From positions 1 through 37,493 of the forward strand of contig CALXJS010000009.1 in assembly GCA_944388685.1 (NCBI GenBank): a DNA stretch of 37,493 nt. Reading direction: 5' to 3'. The DNA comes from an uncultured Clostridia bacterium (GTDB lineage Bacteria; Bacillota_A; Clostridia; TANB77; CAG-508). The position numbers and the translations under genes were made by a program. Shown here one piece after another: positions 9,682 through 37,272 of this stretch (its first letter is position 1; each line of letters begins with the position of its first letter). The notes under the pieces were generated by a model. That model was not told where the DNA came from. It saw nothing but the letters and a program-made list of their open reading frames with translations, and did not search any database.

Positions 9682-9714
9682 AAAGAGAAGCTTCAATGCT
9701 TCTCTCTTTTTTTA
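9682..9714 (+). terminator. second terminator hairpin
   Basis: GAGAAGC, loop TTCAAT, GCTTCTC and a long T run. It lies 190 bp past htrA and may serve as a back-up terminator or belong to an unseen small RNA. Confidence 0.6.
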
Positions 9715-9720
9715 TAATTT

Positions 9721-9751
9721 GAGACAATTGGGGCCAGGTTACTTTTGTCTC
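9721..9751. repeat. GAGACA repeat family, copy A
   Basis: GAGACAATTGGGGCCAGGTT then ACTTTTGTCTC. The outer bases GAGACAA/TTGTCTC can pair. It ends exactly at the stop codon of the minus-strand gene that follows. Related copies lie at 14534-14596, 16213-16254, 25857-25900 and 26007-26050. Confidence 0.7.
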
Positions 9752-13943: not shown

Positions 13944-14537
13944 ATGCTAAAATATGTACCAAATACCCTAACAGTTATTCGATTTATATTAATACCATTT
14001 ATTGTAATGAATATCTTTTCTGGAAATTATATTATGGCATTTATCCTATTTACCTTATCAGCTATAACAGATATTGCTGATGGTTTTATAGCCAGAAAAT
14101 TCAATTTAATATCAAATTTTGGAAAATTGATGGACCCTTTAGCAGATAAACTAACACAAATTTGTACCATCGCTTCTTTAACATTAATTGATATCATTCC
14201 TATTTGGATATTGGTTATTGTATTACTAAAAGAATTGATTATGATTGCTGGTGCCTCTTTCCTTTATGGAAAAGATGTTGTTGTATACAGCAAATGGTAT
14301 GGAAAATTAGCTACTGTACTTTTCTATGTTGCGATTGTATTTTCTCTACTAATTAATCAATTTGAACTTGGAACTCTTTGGGCAAATTTGGATTTGGGCT
14401 TATTCTATTTGGCTTTATTTGCTACTGTTTTTTCTTTAGTAATGTATATTAAAGATGTTTATAAAAAGGGATTTATTGATAAACAAGATTTGAATAAAGA
14501 AGTTACGATTGATAAAAAAGAGAGAAAGAAAAAATGA
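13944..14537 (+). CDS. pgsA: CDP-diacylglycerol-glycerol-3-phosphate 3-phosphatidyltransferase
   Basis: 197 aa integral membrane enzyme that makes phosphatidylglycerol-phosphate, the committed step to PG and cardiolipin. The CDP-alcohol phosphotransferase motif D43-x2-D46-G47-x2-A50-R51-x8-G60-x3-D64-x3-D68 is complete (DIADGFIARKF...NFGKLMDPLADK). About five to six hydrophobic helices are visible. The N-terminus MLKYVPNTLTVIRFILIP is characteristic of PgsA. SD AAAGGAATG precedes the ATG. Its TGA stop lies inside the 63-bp hairpin of repeat copy B. It ends in a Lys-rich tail. Confidence 0.93.
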   Translation: MLKYVPNTLTVIRFILIPFIVMNIFSGNYIMAFILFTLSAITDIADGFIARKFNLISNFGKLMDPLADKLTQICTIASLTLIDIIPIWILVIVLLKELIMIAGASFLYGKDVVVYSKWYGKLATVLFYVAIVFSLLINQFELGTLWANLDLGLFYLALFATVFSLVMYIKDVYKKGFIDKQDLNKEVTIDKKERKKK

Positions 14538-14596
14538 GACAGATTGGGCCAGGTCGGGTTTTGTAGCAAAACCCAACCTGACCCAATCTGTCTCAT
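14534..14596. terminator. 63-bp hairpin, GAGACA repeat family copy B, shared terminator
   Basis: Arms of 30 bp with 28 matches start ATGAGACAGATTGGG, with loop TAG. It contains the pgsA stop and touches the stop of the convergent bofC-like gene, so it can end both transcripts. It shares GAGACA.ATTGGG.CAGGT with the other family copies. Confidence 0.75.
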
Positions 14597-15202
14597 TTAT
14601 TCATAATCTTCTATTAACTGATTTAATTCCACTCTTCCATTTGCTTCAATTCCATTTTGCAATTCAATTCTATCTGTTTCTGTTAAAAATTCAGTTGCAA
14701 TATCTGTTTCTTCTACCAATTCTTCCGTATCGCCCACTCTTAAATATACAGCCACTTTTCCATCTTTTTCTCTTAACACATAATGTTCTCCACATTCACT
14801 ATCAAATTCTCTATATAAAACAATTTGATTTTTTGAAAATTCTTCTATTGTCCATCCCTCATATTGTTTCTGTAAATCTTCTTCTGTCTTATTAACCAAT
14901 TCAGTTGGTACACTAGCATATTGTTCTAGGGTGTGCCCACATTGATTATAATATCTTCTAAATATAATCGAACAATTTGGAGATATTTTTTCACTTTCTG
15001 AACTTGTCTCTTCTACTAATGTATTACTTTGCACCATTTCTTCATATTCATCTGTACACTCGTCATAAATTTCTTCTTGACTTTCTTCTGCGATTTGCGT
15101 TTTTTCTTCTTCTCCAGCAAAGTTTTTTATTAAAATAACACCTATCACGGTTCCTAAGATAAATAATACAATAACGCCTGAAATAATAATACTTTTTTTC
15201 AT
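14597..15202 (-). CDS. membrane protein with BofC C-terminal-like domain
   Basis: 201 aa from the ATG at 15202; an ATG at 15214 is in frame but only one base from the SD, and the leader is aligned with that of the gene at 9752-10609, which starts at the equivalent of 15202. One N-terminal membrane helix (about 5-27) and an acidic linker precede an extracytoplasmic part. The end of the protein (REKDGKVAVYL...ETDIATEFLTETDRIELQNGI...LNQLIEDYE) has the pattern of the BofC C-terminal domain, known from the forespore intermembrane-space protein that controls SpoIVB. In this context a related wall or sporulation role is plausible. It carries the CCTTAGGAAGG leader motif. Confidence 0.65.
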   Translation of the reverse strand: MKKSIIISGVIVLFILGTVIGVILIKNFAGEEEKTQIAEESQEEIYDECTDEYEEMVQSNTLVEETSSESEKISPNCSIIFRRYYNQCGHTLEQYASVPTELVNKTEEDLQKQYEGWTIEEFSKNQIVLYREFDSECGEHYVLREKDGKVAVYLRVGDTEELVEETDIATEFLTETDRIELQNGIEANGRVELNQLIEDYE

Positions 15203-16053: not shown

Positions 16054-16082
16054 TATTCATTTTTTATATTTGTTGTTTCTAT

Positions 16083-16135
16083 TCAATGTAAAATTCCTCG
16101 AAGGTATATATACCTTCAAAAATTTCACTGTGCAA
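16083..16135. repeat. remnant of the palindromic MITE-like family
   Basis: An 18-bp perfect palindrome GAAGGTATATATACCTTC (16100-16117) is flanked by AATGTAAAATTCC on one side and an imperfect complement (AAATTTCACTGTGCAA) on the other. The end sequence and the GAAGGTATATATA core match the element at 20336-20656. Confidence 0.5.
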
Positions 16136-16137
16136 TC

Positions 16138-16150
16138 GTTAGAGCGAAGC
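16138..16150. repeat. GTTAGAGCGAAGC motif, copy 1
   Basis: Identical 13-mer at 24907-24919, each followed by ...TTCTTG.ATAG.AAAAA. It stands out in GC from its AT-rich surroundings. Confidence 0.45.
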
Positions 16151-16154
16151 AACC

Positions 16155-16193
16155 TTCTTGAATAGAAAAAATTTGATTTTTTCTATTCAAGAA
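16155..16193. terminator. 17-bp-arm hairpin downstream of comEC
   Basis: TTCTTGAATAGAAAAAA pairs perfectly with TTTTTTCTATTCAAGAA across 5 nt. The poly-U side of the arm can act in either direction. Confidence 0.5.
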
Positions 16194-16212
16194 CAAAAAC
16201 TATTCGCCATTT

Positions 16213-16254
16213 TTCGACAAAAATGAGACAAAAAGCTACCTGGCCCAAATTGTC
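16213..16254. repeat. GAGACA repeat family, copy C
   Basis: TTCGACAAAAATGAGACAAA then AAGCTACCTGGCCCAAATTGTC. Same orientation as copy E, located just past the comEC stop on the minus strand. Confidence 0.7.
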
Positions 16255-16281: not shown

Positions 16282-17748
16282 CTATGAATTTGCATGCCGA
16301 AATGCTTTTAGTCTTTCTAACACTTCTGCGTTAGGATGTCCAAACATGTTATTTTTTCCTACTCCGATTAGTGCTATTTTGCTTTTTATTGCTTTTAAAA
16401 ATTCTTCTGTTGATGATGTTTTTGACCCATGATGGGCTACTTTTAATATGGTTGCTTGCAAATTACTTAAGTTGTTTTTATATAAATTTAAGATTTTCTT
16501 TTCTGCAATTTCTTCAATGTCTCCTGTAAATAGCATACTAAAGTTTTTGTATTGCATTTTCATAACCATTGCATTATTATTTAATATGTTTTCTTCTATT
16601 AACTCTTCTGTTGGCCACAATATATGAAAGCTTATATCATCAATTAGTACGATATCTCCTGCTTTTACTACTTTTACGTAGAGATTTTTTTGTTCTACAA
16701 TTTCTAAGAATTTTTTATAGTTTTCACTTTCTTCTCCTTGTTTTGTGATATAGATTTGTCCTACTCTTAATTCTTCTAGTACTGTTAAAATGCCTCCTAC
16801 ATGGTCTTGGTCAAAATGGGATATGAAGATATAATCTACTTTTGTATGTCCTTTATCTAATATGTAAGGGATAAGCGTATCTTTTCCAACATCAAATGTG
16901 CTAGAAGTGCTTCCTCCTCCGTCTATTAAAATGGTTTTATGATTTGGTGTTGTGATAAAACAAGCGTCTCCTTGTCCAACATCTAAGAAACAAATTTCTA
17001 GTTTTTTATTAAACTGAAAAATAACTATGACACTAATTAGTAAAATAATAATTTTATATGTCTTTAAAATAAGAAATTTTAAATTTTTCTTTACATCTGT
17101 ATTCTTTTTATTTCTATCTTGTTTCCAAAATTCTTTATACGCCTTAGCAAATTTTCTCTTTTTTTGATATAGCTTGTACTTTATCAATGCAATTATATTT
17201 TTTCCCCTCTTTTGTGTAGGGCTTAAATATTTGCTTGTATAAATGACATATAATTGATTGCTTACAAAAATAACAATGTAATATATAATGATACTAACTA
17301 AACTTGGTGTTGCCACATATATTTTTGAAAATGGTAAATTAGCTAAATTAGAAATTTCGATTAGTCCTTGAATTCCAATGGACAGAAATATAGAAATAAA
17401 GTTTGAAATTTCTGAATGAATAAATGCACTGATTATAAATAAAATAGATAAAGCCATGATTGGTCCAATGATAATACTTACCAAGATATTGGCTATTAAA
17501 AAATAGATACCAATCACATTAAAATGGTATAGCAGAACTGGTAAGAGCATAATTTGTGCAGATAGTGTGACAGATATTATGTCTTTAAGATTTTCTATAA
17601 CTTTAGATACATGTTTATTTTTCTTGATTATAATACTATTTTTTAATCTTTTTATATTATCAAAATATTGTTTTATATTTTTATGAAATAAGATAATACC
17701 TATTGTTCCTAAATAAGATAATTGTAATCCCACACCGTGTAATGGCAT
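16282..17748 (-). CDS. comEC: ComEC C-terminal part (channel end plus metallo-beta-lactamase domain), frameshifted
   Basis: 488-aa frame. It begins at an arbitrary ATG without SD inside the Competence domain (GVGLQLSYLGTIGIILF), continues through about seven membrane segments, and ends in a metallo-beta-lactamase domain with LDVGQGDACFI, LIDGGG and the metal motif SHFDQDHVGG, then VAHHGSKTSS. These belong to the ComEC/Rec2 DNA-uptake channel. The N-terminal part is in another frame (17681-18919). The junction is near 17717-17730, where one extra base (or two missing) separates QNPYAI from VGLQLSYLG. The protein as read is a broken gene unless the shift is a sequencing error. Confidence 0.85.
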   Translation of the reverse strand: MPLHGVGLQLSYLGTIGIILFHKNIKQYFDNIKRLKNSIIIKKNKHVSKVIENLKDIISVTLSAQIMLLPVLLYHFNVIGIYFLIANILVSIIIGPIMALSILFIISAFIHSEISNFISIFLSIGIQGLIEISNLANLPFSKIYVATPSLVSIIIYYIVIFVSNQLYVIYTSKYLSPTQKRGKNIIALIKYKLYQKKRKFAKAYKEFWKQDRNKKNTDVKKNLKFLILKTYKIIILLISVIVIFQFNKKLEICFLDVGQGDACFITTPNHKTILIDGGGSTSSTFDVGKDTLIPYILDKGHTKVDYIFISHFDQDHVGGILTVLEELRVGQIYITKQGEESENYKKFLEIVEQKNLYVKVVKAGDIVLIDDISFHILWPTEELIEENILNNNAMVMKMQYKNFSMLFTGDIEEIAEKKILNLYKNNLSNLQATILKVAHHGSKTSSTEEFLKAIKSKIALIGVGKNNMFGHPNAEVLERLKAFRHANS

Positions 17749-18919
17749 ATGGATTTTGAATCAGAATACACAATAAGGAAAATGCAATTGATGTCCATAT
17801 ATCTTTTTTTCGATAAACCAGAAACGATAATATACTTAGTATTCCCATAATACCTGCTCGCACAATGGAACTTGTAGCACCCGTTATACTAACATAGAAA
17901 ATCACAGCTAATATCATAATATATTTTACTTTTCTTTTTCCTAACCATTTTTTGAGAAAAATTTCTATTCCCATAATGATATAAACCACATGCATACCAG
18001 ATACAGCTAAAACATGAGAAATATTGGCAATTTGAAATTGTTCTTGTAAATCCTCTTCTAACACTGTGGTATCTCCTAACAGTAAACCTTTTACAATCTG
18101 TTGTTCCTCTTCTTCTAATGCGCCTTCAATTTTTTGATTAATGGCAAGTTTGACATCATTCATTCCTTTTTCTAAAACTGTTACATTGTTAGAAGATACA
18201 ATTTCATATTTATTCACATTTAATGTTCCATAAATACTAATCGATTTTAAGTATAATTGATAATCAAATCCACCTGTGTTTCTCGCCTTACTTCCCTTTT
18301 GAAATTCTCCTTGTAAAATTACTTTATCTCCATATTGAAATTCTACTTCTTTTTTAACGTCTATATAGATTTGCGTAGAGTGATATTTTGTGGAATTATC
18401 TACTGTTAGAACCTTTACTTTATATCGATTTTTATATTCTCTTTCTTGTTTGTTGCTAATGATAATGCCCTCTACTTTTATGGTTTTTTCTTCATACAAG
18501 TGGTTATAACGACTTTCTTGAAATATGAAAATGATATTGGAAATAATTGAACTGACTATAATAACAGAAATAATTGATTTTGTTAAGAATAATTTGATAT
18601 AGCGAATATATCGCTTAATGGAAAACAATTGAAATTTTTTATTTTCATTTACAGATTTCATCTTTGCCCTTTTATGTGGGAAAAAATGTGTCCCAAAATT
18701 TGAACAAAACAATAATTTCAAATAATAATTATTATCTTTTGTACTCATAAACAAAAGCTTTTTTACGCCATATAAAAATGCTATAAGGATATATAAAAGG
18801 ACTATACTAAAACGAAAGTATAGCCCCCATATAATTCCAATACAATATCCTATAGCGATAACAACAATTGGTCTTTTAATGCTATCGCCTCCTAAATTAC
18901 AATACTCTTCTTGCCCCAT
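17681..18919 (-). CDS. comEC: ComEC N-terminal part (OB/DUF4131 and first channel helices), frameshifted
   Basis: 412-aa frame. Membrane helices (about 17-33, 35-52, 113-131) flank a DUF4131/OB region (KVEGIIISNKQ...KVILQGEFQKGSKARNTGGFDY), then the start of the Competence domain (GLLLGDTTVLEEDLQEQFQ, NISHVLAVSGMHV, TGATSSIVRAGIM). After QNPYAI it runs out of frame. The ATG at 18919 lies inside the end of the NlpC gene and has no SD. A strong SD (TTAGGAGG, right after the NlpC stop) faces an ATT at 18880, giving (I)KRPIVVIAIGYCIGIIW, which is where ComEC proteins normally begin. So the natural start seems to be ATT, or a mutated ATG. Confidence 0.85.
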   Translation of the reverse strand: MGQEEYCNLGGDSIKRPIVVIAIGYCIGIIWGLYFRFSIVLLYILIAFLYGVKKLLFMSTKDNNYYLKLLFCSNFGTHFFPHKRAKMKSVNENKKFQLFSIKRYIRYIKLFLTKSIISVIIVSSIISNIIFIFQESRYNHLYEEKTIKVEGIIISNKQEREYKNRYKVKVLTVDNSTKYHSTQIYIDVKKEVEFQYGDKVILQGEFQKGSKARNTGGFDYQLYLKSISIYGTLNVNKYEIVSSNNVTVLEKGMNDVKLAINQKIEGALEEEEQQIVKGLLLGDTTVLEEDLQEQFQIANISHVLAVSGMHVVYIIMGIEIFLKKWLGKRKVKYIMILAVIFYVSITGATSSIVRAGIMGILSILSFLVYRKKDIWTSIAFSLLCILIQNPYAITRCGITIILFRNNRYYLIS

Positions 18920-20234
18920 AATAATTATTGTTATAATATCCTGTGCTTAAAGAATCAATTCTAACACCTGTTGATGGTGTTGATGCGTGGATAATTTGTC
19001 CTCCGCCTATATATATTGCAACATGTGTAATTTTTGATTTACCAAACATAACCAAGTCGCCTGGTTGTAAATTACTTCTGCTAACGGCAACGCCATTACT
19101 GTATTGTGCTGATGATGTTCTATTTAATGTAATTCCATGTTGTTTGAATACATATGATGTAAATCCTGAACAGTCAAATCCTGTGCTTGGAGAACTTCCA
19201 CCATATACATATTTATATCCCAAATATTTTTTGGCTGTTGCTACAATTGCAGAACCATTGCTAGATGATGGTACAGATGTTGTTTCTGTAGTTGTATTTT
19301 GTGTTTTACTTTGGTTGGTTGTGGTCTTTTTAGTTGATTTTGTACTACTTGTTTTTCTTGAAGTGCTTTGACTTCTTGATGTTTCTTGTCTACTATCTGA
19401 TAATAGGGAAGTTGCGATATATCCCTCTACATTATTAACCTTTACTCTGCTCCATCCACCTTCTTCACTATATACTTGAACTTCTGTATTTAATGAAGCT
19501 GTTGTAACAATTGTACTTGATGTATTTGCTTCTTGTCTAACATTTACAGTTGAAGAATTTATATATTGTGTTTTGATTGGTGTATTTTCAGCAGGTTGTT
19601 GTTCTTGCACTTCTTCTTGATTTTCTTCTACTGGTTCATCTTTCTTTAATTTATCTTTTCTTAACCAACCTTTGGTTGTTTGTGTTTCTACACATGCCCA
19701 TCCATTCATAATTTCTGTAACAGTAACTGTTTCATCTGTTTTTAATTCTATCACGTCTGTTGCATTGATAGATGGTATTAATTTTAATCTTGTATCCTCT
19801 GAGATTTTGTATTCTCCCAAAGTAATTTCTTCTGTATTTTCTGTGTTTTCAGTATTTTCATCTGTTGTATTTTCTTCTGTTGTGTTTGTTTCCACTTGAT
19901 TGTTGTCTTGTGTACTATTTTCATTTACTTGGTTGTTTTCTTCTGTAGGTTCCGGATTTGAATTTATAGTAACAAGTTCTTTGCTCACATATCCTGTAAT
20001 TTGATTATACGTAACTTGATACCAGTCTCCCTCTTCTCCTAATATTTCAACCTCTTGGTTCAAAGTGATTTGCTCCAAGATTGTACTTTCAGCATTTGCT
20101 TCTCTTCGTAAGTTAGCAACATCTACATTGATTGTTCCCGTGTTGGCTGCTAAGCTGATATTTATAAAAAGCATACTAGCTAAAGAAATAATTGCCATAA
20201 TTAAAATGCTTTTTATATTCATTTTACTTCTCAT
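18897..20234 (-). CDS. secreted SH3b-NlpC/P60 cell-wall hydrolase
   Basis: 445 aa from the ATG at 20234, which has SD AAGGAGAAGG; an ATG at 20261 lacks one. A signal peptide (about 1-30, ending INISLAA) is followed by three SH3b-like domains (about 34-88, 145-198, 222-275) separated by Asn/Glu/Thr-rich linkers, then a Ser/Thr/Lys linker and an NlpC/P60 peptidase domain (about 325-445). The catalytic Cys is in GFDCSGF (about 355) and the His in ITHVAIY (about 404). It is expected to cut D-Glu-meso-DAP-type bonds in peptidoglycan stem peptides. comEC follows with an SD right after its stop, so the two probably share a transcript. Confidence 0.9.
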   Translation of the reverse strand: MRSKMNIKSILIMAIISLASMLFINISLAANTGTINVDVANLRREANAESTILEQITLNQEVEILGEEGDWYQVTYNQITGYVSKELVTINSNPEPTEENNQVNENSTQDNNQVETNTTEENTTDENTENTENTEEITLGEYKISEDTRLKLIPSINATDVIELKTDETVTVTEIMNGWACVETQTTKGWLRKDKLKKDEPVEENQEEVQEQQPAENTPIKTQYINSSTVNVRQEANTSSTIVTTASLNTEVQVYSEEGGWSRVKVNNVEGYIATSLLSDSRQETSRSQSTSRKTSSTKSTKKTTTNQSKTQNTTTETTSVPSSSNGSAIVATAKKYLGYKYVYGGSSPSTGFDCSGFTSYVFKQHGITLNRTSSAQYSNGVAVSRSNLQPGDLVMFGKSKITHVAIYIGGGQIIHASTPSTGVRIDSLSTGYYNNNYYGARRVL

Positions 20235-20302
20235 TGTAATCCTTCTCCTTAAATAATTCATATTTTTAAAAAAGTAGTACTTGGACAGTATACTATAAAT
20301 CT

Positions 20303-20330
20303 AAAAAAAAGTCAAATTTTTGACTTTTTT
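20303..20330 (-). terminator. terminator between the structured element and nlpC gene
   Basis: AAAAAGTCA and TGACTTTTT arms with T runs on both sides. On the minus strand it would end transcripts coming from the XRE gene and the element. Confidence 0.55.
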
Positions 20331-20335
20331 CTAAA

Positions 20336-20656
20336 TTCTTCCAGTTAATAGTATACAATTCCTAGAAGGTATATATATTATATTTTAAGCGGGTTTCGGG
20401 GGACCGACACGCTACATACTCTTATTAAATCAGCGATAGTTCCATGGGAGCTGATTTAACATTCTAGGAATTTCAATTCCTAGAATGTTAAATTACATTG
20501 CACAGAAAAATTGCTTAGCAATTTTTCGCGTCGACAAATCTTTACGTTTAGAGAACATAGAGTTCTCTAAACGAGATTTGTCAGAGTATGTAAAGTGTTG
20601 GGATAGCGAAAAATATAATATATATACCTTCTAAGAATTGTACACTGAACTGTAAC
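20336..20656. repeat. 320-bp MITE-like element with four internal hairpins; possible structured RNA
   Basis: The ends are inverted: left 20342-20386 (CAGTTAATAGTATACAATTCC, then TAGAAGGTATATATATTATATTTT) pairs with right 20609-20656 (AAAATATAATATATATACC, then TTCTAAGAATTGTACACTGAACTGTAAC). Inside, ACATACTC/GAGTATGT (20414-20421 with 20584-20591) closes a second helix around four hairpins. These are TTAAATCAGC/GCTGATTTAA (20425-20459), a perfect 15-bp stem AACATTCTAGGAATT (20458-20489), GAAAAATTGCT/AGCAATTTTTC (20505-20527), and a two-part stem GACAAATCT plus CGTTTAGAGAAC with its complements (20533-20582). No coding frame. The ends match the palindrome at 37086-37155. Confidence 0.7.
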
Positions 20657-20664
20657 AATAATCT

Positions 20665-20997
20665 TTATACTACCTGATTTTTTAGTAATAGTTTTACCAT
20701 ATGATAGATAAACTTTTGCTTTTCAATACTACATTTAATAATTAACTCATACAATTCTTTATCCATATATCTCATTATATTTTCATTTTTCTCATTTAGA
20801 ACCTCATAAATAGAAACATTTAAGAAATCACATACTCTAACAAACTTTTCAAATTCTGCACTTGCTTTTCCTTTTTCTAATTGACTAATATAATTTATTG
20901 ATATACCTAACTGCTTAGCCATTTGTTTTTGCGTAATCTTATTTTGTATTCTAGTTTCCTGTAAACGTTTACCAATATTAGAAAAATCTATATTCAT
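20665..20997 (-). CDS. XRE-family HTH transcriptional regulator
   Basis: 110 aa. Residues 8-64 form a Cro/CI-type helix-turn-helix: IGKRLQETRIQNKITQKQMA, then LGISINYISQLEKGKASA. The C-terminal 40 residues (MDKELYELIIKCSIEKQKFIYHMVKLLLK) look helical and may dimerise. It has its own sigma-A promoter (21022-21050) and a GGAG SD. It sits downstream of the SBP gene; whether it controls the importer, the structured element or itself cannot be told. The size resembles SinR/immunity-type single-domain repressors. Confidence 0.88.
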   Translation of the reverse strand: MNIDFSNIGKRLQETRIQNKITQKQMAKQLGISINYISQLEKGKASAEFEKFVRVCDFLNVSIYEVLNEKNENIMRYMDKELYELIIKCSIEKQKFIYHMVKLLLKNQVV

Positions 20998-21021
20998 ATT
21001 ATCACTTCTCCTTCATTGGTA

Positions 21022-21050
21022 AATATAACATTATGAGTTTTATTTGTCAA
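21022..21050 (-). promoter_or_regulatory. sigma-A-type promoter of the XRE gene
   Basis: TTGACA, 17-bp spacer, TATATT on the minus strand, 25 bp before the start codon. Confidence 0.7.
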
Positions 21051-21075
21051 TACATTTTTTACATGTTAGTAAAAA

Positions 21076-22095
21076 TTAATTTTCTATTGAGTTAAATGCA
21101 AATGTATTATTAACAATTTTATTATAAGGTGCTGGATTTTCTAATTCTCCTGCCATTGTCATAACTTCTTGAAGTCGATTAAAACTTTCTTCTTCTAATA
21201 CTGGTGTTTCATTCCATGCATCAATATCTTTATATGTTTGGATGGATTGTGCTAACATTTCAATACTTGTATCAGGGAAAAAATCTTGTATCACAGTTGC
21301 AATCTCTTCTGCTGAATGTTCTTTTACCCAAGTTTGCCCCTCATAAATTGCATTTGTAAAGTTTTGTATTGTTTCTTCATTTGCTTCTATATAACTCTTT
21401 TTCGAAAAATAAGCCGTATATGGGATTTCGCCTGCTTCTTCTCCAACTGACGCTACCACATATCCTTTTCCTTCTAATTCTGTTAAAGACGCTGTTGGTT
21501 CAAATAAGGTTACATAGTCAGCATTTCCAGCAGCAAATGCACCTGCCATTAAGTCAAATTTAATACTATCATCTAATACTACGTCTGTTTCTGGATTAAT
21601 TCCATTCTTTTTTAGGACATATTCTAATGTCATGTATGGTACGCCACCTTTTCTGCCAGGTATAACCGTTTTACCTTTTAAATTTTGCCAACTAAAATTT
21701 TCTTCATCTGTTCTAGAGACCAATAATGACCCATCTTTTTTCGTTAATTGAGCAAATACCTCTGTATAATCTTCTTTTCCTTCATTATATACATAGATAG
21801 ACGCTTCTGGGCCAGCAAACCCAATTTCTACTTGATTAGCTAATACACTTGTCATAACAGCATCTGCCCCCTGACCTGTTGACAATTCAATTTCTAACCC
21901 TCTTTCTTCAAAATATCCATTGCTGATTGCTACATATTGTGGTGCATAGAAGACTGAACGTGTTACTTCACTAACATTGATGGTTTGTAAAGTATTTTGA
22001 TTATTTCCTTTTTGACATTTTATAACGACAACAGCAATAACAATTACTATGAGTACAATGATTACCACTAGCGCAATTTTTCCTTTTTTACTCAT
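21076..22095 (-). CDS. ABC importer substrate-binding protein (SsuA/THI5/NMT1-like)
   Basis: 339 aa. An N-terminal membrane segment (about 7-26) is followed by the two-lobed periplasmic-binding fold of the NMT1/SsuA/THI5 group: FYAPQYVAISNGYFEERGLE, QGADAVMTSVLANQVEIGFA, and LKGKTVIPGRKGGVPYMTLE. A Cys at about 27 follows the helix, but the lipobox is poor. Substrates of this group are alkanesulfonates, nitrate/taurine, or thiamine-pyrimidine precursors; the sequence does not decide. SD AAGGAGG precedes the ATG. The ATPase and permease lie 1.1 kb away on the same strand, separated by an opposing gene. No TPP riboswitch was seen. Confidence 0.88.
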   Translation of the reverse strand: MSKKGKIALVVIIVLIVIVIAVVVIKCQKGNNQNTLQTINVSEVTRSVFYAPQYVAISNGYFEERGLEIELSTGQGADAVMTSVLANQVEIGFAGPEASIYVYNEGKEDYTEVFAQLTKKDGSLLVSRTDEENFSWQNLKGKTVIPGRKGGVPYMTLEYVLKKNGINPETDVVLDDSIKFDLMAGAFAAGNADYVTLFEPTASLTELEGKGYVVASVGEEAGEIPYTAYFSKKSYIEANEETIQNFTNAIYEGQTWVKEHSAEEIATVIQDFFPDTSIEMLAQSIQTYKDIDAWNETPVLEEESFNRLQEVMTMAGELENPAPYNKIVNNTFAFNSIEN

Positions 22096-24906: not shown

Positions 24907-24919
24907 GTTAGAGCGAAGC
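24907..24919. repeat. GTTAGAGCGAAGC motif, copy 2
   Basis: Same 13-mer as at 16138-16150, again followed by TTCTTG.ATAG.AAAAA and a hairpin. The rest of 24758-25074 is AT-rich, with no coding frame and no recognised riboswitch. Confidence 0.45.
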
Positions 24920-24935
24920 GATGTTCTTGTATAGG

Positions 24936-24966
24936 AAAAAGGTATGTAAACAATACATACCTTTCC
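24936..24966 (-). terminator. terminator of the 205-aa gene
   Basis: AAAGGTATGTA and TACATACCTTT arms, loop of 5 nt, T run on the minus strand. Confidence 0.6.
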
Positions 24967-25692: not shown

Positions 25693-25856
25693 CTCCTTAT
25701 AAAACCAAATTTCAACTTACTTTGGGAAAATCTTTTGATATACTATTAAAAATGATGATAAATTTTAGAATAAATATATAAATTAAAATTATGTATATTA
25801 AATCATAAAAACGAGAAAAATACAAGGAATTTTTCATATTTAATATAAAATAATTG

Positions 25857-25900
25857 GAGACAATTGGGGACAGGTAGCTTTTTGTCTCATTTTTGTCGAA
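25857..25900 (+). repeat. GAGACA repeat family, copy D
   Basis: GAGACAATTGGGGACAGGTA then GCTTTTTGTCTCATTTTTGTCGAA. An inverted copy with one mismatch in 44 lies at 26007-26050; 106 AT-rich bases lie between. Confidence 0.75.
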
Positions 25901-26006
25901 TTTTATTGTTTTTTGTTTGTATATATGAAATTTTGGAATCAAAATAAAAGTATAATCTTGTTATAACTTAAATAAACTAAAAAATATTACAAACAGAATT
26001 CCATAA

Positions 26007-26050
26007 TTCGACAAAAATGAGACAAAAAGCTACCTGTCCCAAATTGTCTC
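26007..26050 (-). repeat. GAGACA repeat family, copy E, overlapping rluB 3' end
   Basis: Inverted partner of copy D. On the minus strand it reads GAGACAATTTGGGACAGGTAG and so on, providing the final codons ETIWDR and the TAG stop of rluB. The stretch 25693-26029 contains only these copies and AT-rich filler. Confidence 0.75.
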
Positions 26051-26749
26051 TACTTCTTCTTTGGATAAATATCTCCATTTTCCTAGTTCTAAATTTTTTA
26101 CTTCTATTCCTGCAATAGCACTTCTATGTAATGCTAGCACCTTATACCCAATTGCTTCACACATCTTTCTGACTTGTCTATTTTTTCCTTCGTGTATGAT
26201 AATTTCTAATCTGGTAATTTGTTTTTCTTCATCTGTTTTTAGGTATTTTACTTTCGCTGGTTTTGTAATATACCCTCCAATATCTACTCCTTGTCTTAAT
26301 TGTTCTATTTTTTCCTTGTTGACAATTCCTTTCAAAGTAACTGTATAGGTTTTATGAATCTCATGTTTTGGATGTGTCACTCTATAAACAAAGTCTCCGT
26401 CGTTGGTAAGAATTAATGCTCCTGATGTATACATATCTAATCTTCCTACTGGCACAATTCGTTCTTTCACTTTTACCAAGTCTAAAACAGAATCTCGATG
26501 AAATTGGTCCTTTACAGTGGTTACATAGCCAATTGGTTTATTTAATAAAATGTAAACTTTTCTATTCTCTATTTTTACTGTTTTCCCGAGATAACAGATT
26601 TCATCTTTTTCTGGCACTACTTTTGTTCCTAATTCTGTTACTACTTTCCCATTTACTTGAACTTTTCCTTGTAAGATGAGTTCTTCTGCTTTTCTTCTTG
26701 AGGCAATTCCCGCTTCTGCCAAGTATTTTTGTAATCGTATTTCTTCCAA
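26030..26749 (-). CDS. rluB: 16S/23S rRNA pseudouridine synthase, RluB/RsuA family
   Basis: 239 aa. An S4 RNA-binding domain (LQKYLAEAGIASRRKAEELI, residues 6-25 onward) precedes the catalytic domain with D105 in VGRLDMYTSGALILTNDGD. HEGKNRQVRKMCEAIGY closes the RsuA/RluB signature. It isomerises uridine in rRNA (position 2605 for RluB). It starts at TTG with SD AAAGGAG at 8 nt. The last six residues come from repeat copy E. It is the last gene of the lspA-rluD-hypothetical-rluB cluster. Confidence 0.92.
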   Translation of the reverse strand: MEEIRLQKYLAEAGIASRRKAEELILQGKVQVNGKVVTELGTKVVPEKDEICYLGKTVKIENRKVYILLNKPIGYVTTVKDQFHRDSVLDLVKVKERIVPVGRLDMYTSGALILTNDGDFVYRVTHPKHEIHKTYTVTLKGIVNKEKIEQLRQGVDIGGYITKPAKVKYLKTDEEKQITRLEIIIHEGKNRQVRKMCEAIGYKVLALHRSAIAGIEVKNLELGKWRYLSKEEVETIWDR

Positions 26750-36937: not shown

Positions 36938-37085
36938 ATTTCATCTCATTCCTTTCTCAAATCACACATTTCATTGGTGTTATAGTATTTTGCCTCTTTA
37001 GTTCATTTCATGGAAAATTATACCATACCAATTTTTAATTGTAAAGAAATTTCATAATAAAAAGGACATCTTTTGAAAACTAATA

Positions 37086-37155
37086 GTTACAGTTCAGTAT
37101 ACAAAATCCCGGGAAGATATATATCTTCCCGGGATTTTGTATACTGAACTGTAAC
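37086..37155. repeat. perfect 70-bp palindrome, minimal MITE-like copy
   Basis: The left half GTTACAGTTCAGTATACAAA then ATCCCGGGAAGATAT is mirrored without mismatch. Direct repeats AACTAAT lie at 37078-37084 and 37156-37162, like a target-site duplication. The outer 20 bp match the ends of the 20336-20656 element. The rest of 36938-37272 holds no gene. Confidence 0.8.
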
Positions 37156-37272
37156 AACTAATGTTATTAGTATTTCTTCTGATGTCCTATATAGCAAATC
37201 TATGCCTTAAATATAGATAGTCAGATTAGGAAAGGTAGAGAAAATATTCAAAAAAGTTTACTATTGTTTTCT

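Follow-up and report, generated by a model that had tools for sequence, protein, structure and literature searches.

Bacterial MITEs are usually regarded as defective transposons whose definition rests on their ends, and REP/REPIN elements are dispersed intergenic palindromes linked to RAYT (Y1) transposases. Among the bacterial MITEs that have been reviewed are Correia, ERIC, RUP, BOX, SPRITE, and QMITE (PMC10969869). Structured RNAs are also associated with mobile DNA, as exemplified by the RAGATH-18 RNAs, which go with IS607 TnpB (PMC11061315). Furthermore, palindromic candidate structured RNAs have been predicted in gut bacteria; two of the examples come from Bacteroidetes, and the main text of that study contains no word beginning with "transpos" (PMC8040213).

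Here, we analyzed a 37,493-nt stretch of DNA from an uncultured Clostridia bacterium (hereafter, the window; GC content of 28%), in which an earlier note had described a single folded element of 320 bp with mobile ends that may be a structured RNA. It is well supported that two structured, mobile, non-coding families are nested in the window, both apparently absent from Rfam. As a transposon-like repeat, the element is ordinary; what sets it apart is that conservation resides in a covarying fold.

Composition of the locus and insertion of its elements

The element is flanked by two genes on the (−) strand, one encoding an NlpC/P60-SH3 protein (18897-20261) and the other a helix-turn-helix protein (20665-20997), and no ORF of ≥100 aa was found within 20353-20656. 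The minimum free energy of the reported element was −139.6 kcal/mol on the (+) strand and −144.3 kcal/mol on the (−) strand (z = −15.4 and −18.0, respectively). No shuffle out of 100 reached this stability on either strand; such an excess over shuffles is expected of nested inverted repeats. The inverted ends noticed earlier were recovered as 37-nt arms with 95% complementarity (20350-20386 with 20610-20646), the predicted fold also contains the second closing helix and a number of inner hairpins, and a dispersed palindrome matching the ends, which had likewise been claimed, was found at 37076-37165 and, with a poorer match, at 16070-16112.

A blast search with 331 bp against the genomes of 10 relatives returned matches in all 10 and split the query: positions 1-129 and 246-331 recur jointly without the middle, and positions ~126-220 recur alone, indicating that the reported 320 bp comprise two elements (Table 1). 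Hence, the idea of one folded 320-bp element holds for the folding and fails for the single molecule, since ~20459-20582 is a separate dispersed repeat. Similarly, of the limits first proposed (20336..20656), the right one stands and the left one does not, as the transposon-like unit begins at ~20353 with an apparently shortened left end.

Table 1. Coordinates of the outer element, the inner repeat, and related palindromes in the window
Feature	Position	Strand	Description and basis
Outer palindromic MITE-like element	20353..20656 (approx.)	+	Conserved core 5'->3' on the + strand; right end GTACACTGAACTGTAAC; left end apparently short by ~15 bp
5' half of outer core	20371..20458	+	P1 strand, GGGTTTCGGGGGA joining strand, CCGACAC, P2b 5' strand, P3 hairpin; blast split, R1 model match, alignments A1 and A9
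3' half of outer core	20583..20625	+	P2b 3' strand, GTGTTGG, GATA, P1 strand; blast split, alignments A1 and A9
Second structured repeat, inside apical part of outer core	20459..20582 (approx.)	-	Dispersed on its own; R3 match of 88.8 bits, this repeat being one of the 7 sequences used to build R3
Inner repeat, conserved part	20498-20582	-	GACAAATC-hairpin-GATTTGTC, GACGCG-hairpin-TGTGCAA
Inner repeat, most of a further long hairpin	20459-20497	-	5' arm begins at ~20454, in outer sequence
Target duplication, right copy, 8 bp AATAATCT	20657..20664	.	Empty-site comparison; left remnant AATAGT at 20347-20352
Solo palindrome without core, ends as in outer element	37076..37165	.	Flanked by octamers AACTAATA and AACTAATG
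Degenerate copy without core	16070..16130	.	Centre GAAGGTATATATACCTTC

The outer fold in the window is broken by the inner insertion, and this interrupted copy scored 42.7 bits with model R1, compared with 140-160 bits for intact near copies. The same composite, 95% identical, occurs at a different locus in another species (L072 in G003), between octamers ATAAATTT and CTAAATTT, which suggests that the composite probably moved as one unit. A parallel nesting was seen at L245:557-877 (G017), where a different repeat of similar layout (ACAAAT..ATTTGT, GCGC-hairpin-TGTGCAA) is lodged in the same core region.

Other repeats were observed in the window as well. A GTTAGAGCGAAGC..GTTC stretch is repeated at 16138-16171 and 24907-24940; at 16138 and in L098 it adjoins TGTGCAATC and is perhaps a cousin of the inner family. 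A second dispersed inverted-repeat family, GAGACAATTGGGGACAGGTAGC..TTTTTGTCTCATTTTTGTC, which we take to resemble the REP-like repeats of Firmicutes, is found at 9714-9746, 14521-14609, 16207-16254, and 25849-25902 with 26005-26058. In addition, a ComEC-like protein is split across the overlapping ORFs 16282-17748 and 17681-18919 (Competence domain positions 1-124 and 121-262, respectively), suggestive of a frameshift or of an error in the assembly.

Evidence for insertion came from L005 and L006 (92% protein identity), where the orthologous gap lacks the element and reads AGACTATTAACTGG. On the same strand, the window reads AGATTATT and then GTTACAGTTCAGTGTACAATTC, with ..GTATAC-TATTAACTGG on the far side; comparison of these flanks with the empty site suggests that the window copy has lost ~15 bp at the left, including one end motif. 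L004 (95%) carries a hairpin without the core at the same site, and the centre of this hairpin keeps TATAATATATATAC, as next to the core, which makes it likelier that the core was lost from L004 than that it was never present.

The end motif of the outer element is GTTACAGTTCAGTGTAC. For the analyses of ends, duplications, gene context, and inversion, we used 84 near copies (81 model matches minus L191, at a contig end, plus L117-L120), 38 of which have two recognisable ends. Of these 38 copies, 12 have an exact 8-bp direct repeat immediately outside the ends (0.45 expected), and 4 more have an 8-bp repeat with one mismatch; in five sets of copies from more distant genera, a fixed target duplication was not found. 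Thus, inverted terminal repeats and, in near copies, a direct target repeat are present as in MITEs, and the element is likewise small (193-206 bp end to end in the 38 uninterrupted copies of relatives), non-coding, and multicopy.

The same ends also bound core-less hairpins. Different cores between the same GTTACAGTTCA ends were observed at L238:199-426, L239:221-448, and L240:225-452 and possibly at L244:1334-1592 and L253:932-1060; the first three are near-identical 228-bp copies in G005 with a third core (TCGGCTACCCTCC..CGGTCGCATTC). At L331-L335 (G116), L118/L271 (G025), L283, and L287, cores lie between long copy-specific inverted repeats (e.g., TTGCCAAGAGGGACGG..TTTTTGGCAA on both sides) and look as if they had been inserted in the centre of a pre-existing palindrome.

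A conserved, covarying fold in both families

In alignment A9 of the outer core (72 distinct rows), 95.7% of cells are paired and 17 of the 23 pairs show changes on both sides. Covariation in A9 amounted to 0.44, compared with 0.15 in shuffles and ≤0.07 with slid partners, and double-change cells numbered 288, compared with 96.5 in shuffles. Changes on both sides were also found in 18 of 57 pairs among 18 outer-core copies (A1), and double changes in 25 of 49 pairs in A3 (74 distinct rows), 10 of 23 in A6 (22 distinct rows), and 16 of 23 in A7 (32 distinct rows). Across A3, A6, A7, and A9, paired cells made up 95.7-97.0% and double-change cells reached 3.0- to 3.7-fold the shuffled mean, with the counts from A3, A7, A9, and the inner-family alignment A11 leaning towards structure because their rows were fitted to models. 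None of 500 shuffles attained the covariation score in any of these four outer-core alignments, and sliding the pair partners abolished the signal in all of them. Further pair types showed no excess in A6 (16, vs 16.1 in shuffles), and the apical helix proved the weakest in A9 (82% paired).

At the level of single helices, one P2b pair in A9 is G-C in 38 rows, A-U in 23, and U-A in 11, with zero exceptions, and P2a occurs as CCGAC/GUUGG, CCAAU/AUUGG, CCAAC/GUUGG, and CCAGC/GCUGG. The unpaired joining strands next to P2a are GGGGA in 69 of 73 A9 rows and GA in 66 of 73; on our structural reading, tandem G.A pairs between the two are possible. One subfamily has GUGAG/CGAAC or GCGAG/CGAGC as P1a, in which the G.A/A.G is kept and the adjacent pair varies. 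When single copies from distant genera were folded alone (n = 4), three gave the full consensus core and L273 retained P2a and P2b. Since the helix sequences vary and the pairing and joining motifs are kept, the fold appears to be under selection.

The inner family behaves similarly. Its alignment (A11; 38 distinct rows, including one weak row, L382:1749-1854, at 48 bits) has 97.6% of cells paired and double changes in 20 of 37 pairs, none of 500 shuffles reached its covariation score, and GACGCG..TGTGCA and GTAAAGATTTGTC are nearly fixed. Covariation beyond chance, as expected of a structured RNA, was therefore found for the outer core and the inner family alike. The compensatory changes that the earlier note had proposed to look for are present in these alignments, and it had named an inner part without such changes, or a single untranscribed copy, as speaking against a functional element; we found the opposite, i.e., covariation and many copies.

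These patterns bear on an alternative that we consider unlikely, namely that the outer element is an ordinary palindromic MITE, in which template-switching during replication copies one hairpin arm onto the other and the fold has no role. Quasi-palindromes are known to undergo such template-switch correction of one arm from the other. Consistent with it, the arms are copy-specific yet matching (mean identity of 0.74 between a copy's own arms vs 0.55 between copies), and some P2b columns hold A-U, U-A, and G-C without an intermediate. However, arm copying leaves unexplained both the joining strands that are shared across genera (GGGGA and GA, see above) and the similar internal loop. Moreover, in 12 of 16 orthologous groups, the agreement between orthologous arms exceeds that between a copy's own two arms, so the stems are not generally shaped by arm copying; the general concerted evolution that we had expected for the two arms was not observed.

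Distribution, gene context, and candidate partners

The closest loci, retrieved with one protein of the window, comprised 26 at ≥61% identity, each in an assembly of uncultured Clostridia or Eubacteriales. Of the genomes of the 26 nearest relatives, 15 matched the intact outer core strongly, with up to 14 copies per genome, 1 matched weakly, and 10 did not match. Among the relatives' genomes behind 37 of the 68 loci found with this protein, 19 of 37 matched the outer core at E ≤ 1e-3, where E-values are rough and a match of models R1-R3 to the sequences from which they were built is inevitable. In a sample of the order, the outer core occurred in 67 of 287 genomes and the inner family in 70 of 287; 33 genomes had both, compared with 16.3 expected under independence with relatedness ignored. 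Order-wide copy counts are to be read as "at least," with at most 12 candidates scored per genome. In a sample of the class, the outer core was found in 3 of 391 genomes, all 3 of which belong to the order sample as well.

Rfam 15 gave no match in the window at the gathering score, and under permissive settings the element and 22 loci yielded only weak sub-threshold matches to unrelated families, none of them credible. The 331 bp had no match in the phage and plasmid collections in distant mode. Viral contigs yielded three matches by the end-motif pattern and five by the core pattern, all eight with flanking stretches unlike the element and hence attributed to chance; model R2 found no match at the five core-pattern loci. 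A literature search by title revealed no description of such an element, and an earlier, unnamed listing in the tables of PMC8040213 is possible. The combination of mobile ends and a conserved inner fold outside the named families, as first suggested, is thus corroborated by the 8-bp duplications, the empty site, the many copies, the order-wide covariation, and the Rfam 15 scans.

The element was inverted in 5 of 16 near-set orthologous groups, with both flanks matching in each. Orientation was kept in three further groups in G182/G186 (L323/L338, L325/L339, and L327/L340). The inversion count covers orthologous flanks only, leaving aside groups with homologous non-orthologous flanks, same-locus duplicates (L096/L149 and L118/L271), and the mixed L329/L341. 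Recombination between the long arms would produce such an inversion. In G017, the core is found between two different carrier ends that occur in either order, and a carrier without a core, with GTGATATATATCAC at its centre, was observed as well. Together, in-place inversion and carrier ends in either order argue against an orientation-dependent cis role.

Could the core nevertheless be a cis-acting RNA of adjacent genes (a 3′ UTR hairpin, an attenuator, or an mRNA stabiliser) that is dispersed only incidentally? Such roles are among those that MITEs can play (PMC10969869). None of the 50 distant-set copies tested (of 54, with L338-L341 dropped) lies inside an ORF of >150 aa, and an ORF end lies within 20 bp in 48 of 83 near copies (the 84 rows minus one duplicate locus), consistent with this reading. 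It nonetheless seems very improbable to us given the inversions between species, the occurrence of both orientations beside genes, the patchy presence (absence from 10 of the 26 near relatives), and a search of 20200-21100 that found no terminator-like site.

Regarding the strand, tandem gene contexts favour the one opposite the core (36 vs 16 in the near set and 21 vs 15 in the distant set). On the (+) strand, G.U cells outnumber A.C cells (195 vs 37), with 141 of the 195 coming from two fixed columns and the remainder being 54 vs 37, which weakly favours the (+) strand. Judging from conservation, the core may well be a selected folded strand, with RNA more likely than single-stranded DNA.

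A mobilising partner was sought near the ends and genome-wide. Among the 8 proteins scanned out of 121 ORF stretches, no transposase was recognised near the ends. We then compared 20 copy-rich genomes (≥10 matches in the order search; G004 qualified too and was left out) with 20 copy-free genomes for four families. PF01797 (Y1 family) was present in 15 of 20 vs 14 of 20, PF00872 in 4 of 20 vs 2 of 20, PF07282 above the cut-off in 2 of 20 vs 5 of 20, and PF02371 in 5 of 20 vs 4 of 20, i.e., none of the four was clearly associated with copy-rich genomes in this 20-vs-20 comparison.

Another reading is that the core serves a TnpB-, IscB-, or IS110-like RNA-guided mobile system as its guide or scaffold and has spread in non-autonomous derivatives, as structured RNAs within mobile elements do serve such systems (e.g., RAGATH-18 with IS607 TnpB; PMC11061315). 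However, the copy-rich genomes are not clearly enriched in a TnpB or IS110 effector gene, as judged by the PF07282 and PF02371 counts above. In addition, such systems are not known to leave inverted ends with 8-bp duplications. We regard this possibility as extremely unlikely.

Proposed explanation and comparison with known systems

The best explanation, which we consider probable, is that in the window one non-autonomous mobile element is nested in another, both belonging to an AT-rich and little-studied order of gut Clostridia, and that the outer one is MITE-like with a selected fold that is recognised in trans. It builds on what was observed, namely dispersed copies with target duplications, nesting, a conserved fold with covariation, the range of the families, and inversion in place. 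The outer element would be palindromic, with ends GTTACWGTTCA, an 8-bp target duplication, and the conserved fold at its apex. This predicted fold is built from stem P1 and a 5′ joining strand whose terminal GGGGA faces GA or GAUA; helix P2a (CCRAY/RUUGG) follows, then an internal loop (outside the near genus, AAG / YGNA in most cases), and finally P2b with a variable apical hairpin, in which the second structured element (GACAAATC..GATTTGTC, GACGCG-hairpin-TGTGCAA) is lodged in the window copy. The fold may act as a folded strand, more likely RNA than single-stranded DNA, and may be recognised in trans by the factor that mobilises or maintains the element rather than regulate neighbouring genes.

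A broader reading is possible, although we hold it only tentatively: the order might harbour mobile elements of a class in which selection acts on the folded strand as its unit, with several unrelated cores that ride on or in palindromes, enter hairpin centres, flip in place, and nest hairpins, and with the fold as the recognition signal for an undescribed trans-acting RNA- or ssDNA-based mobilisation. The cores would be family 1, family 2, and the third core in the 228-bp elements with the same ends, and carriers centred on GGTATATATACC and GTGATATATATCAC would conceal the 8-bp duplication as a palindrome.

Returning to the two families, the centre is the lasting part in both: two unrelated folds, each of which occurs in roughly one in four of the genomes sampled from the order, show RNA-like covariation while being present in many mobile copies. 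It thus becomes testable whether an RNA or ssDNA structure under selection can be carried by mobile DNA and by what it would be read.

How does this locus compare with the systems described so far? Like the candidate RNAs from gut metagenomes, it is palindromic, and it differs from them in that two of their examples come from Bacteroidetes; the motif is possibly among those listed there unnamed (PMC8040213). With RAGATH-18 RNAs, it shares the setting of a conserved structured RNA (here a putative one) within mobile DNA (PMC11061315), whereas the outer core has no TnpB association in the genomes compared and no Rfam match in the scans made. As with REP/REPIN elements and RAYT (Y1), there are dispersed intergenic palindromes, and long Y1-type proteins occur in the order; in contrast, the outer element has 8-bp duplications at its GTTACWGTTCA ends, and the Y1 family is about as frequent in copy-free as in copy-rich genomes (14 of 20 and 15 of 20, respectively). 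Bacterial MITEs are likewise short, AT-rich, without ORF, intergenic, and present in many copies, with inverted ends, direct repeats, and transcripts expected to fold (PMC10969869). Unlike in bacterial MITEs, a parent IS was not found, and the centre of the outer element is a fold kept by order-wide covariation, with fixed joining motifs.
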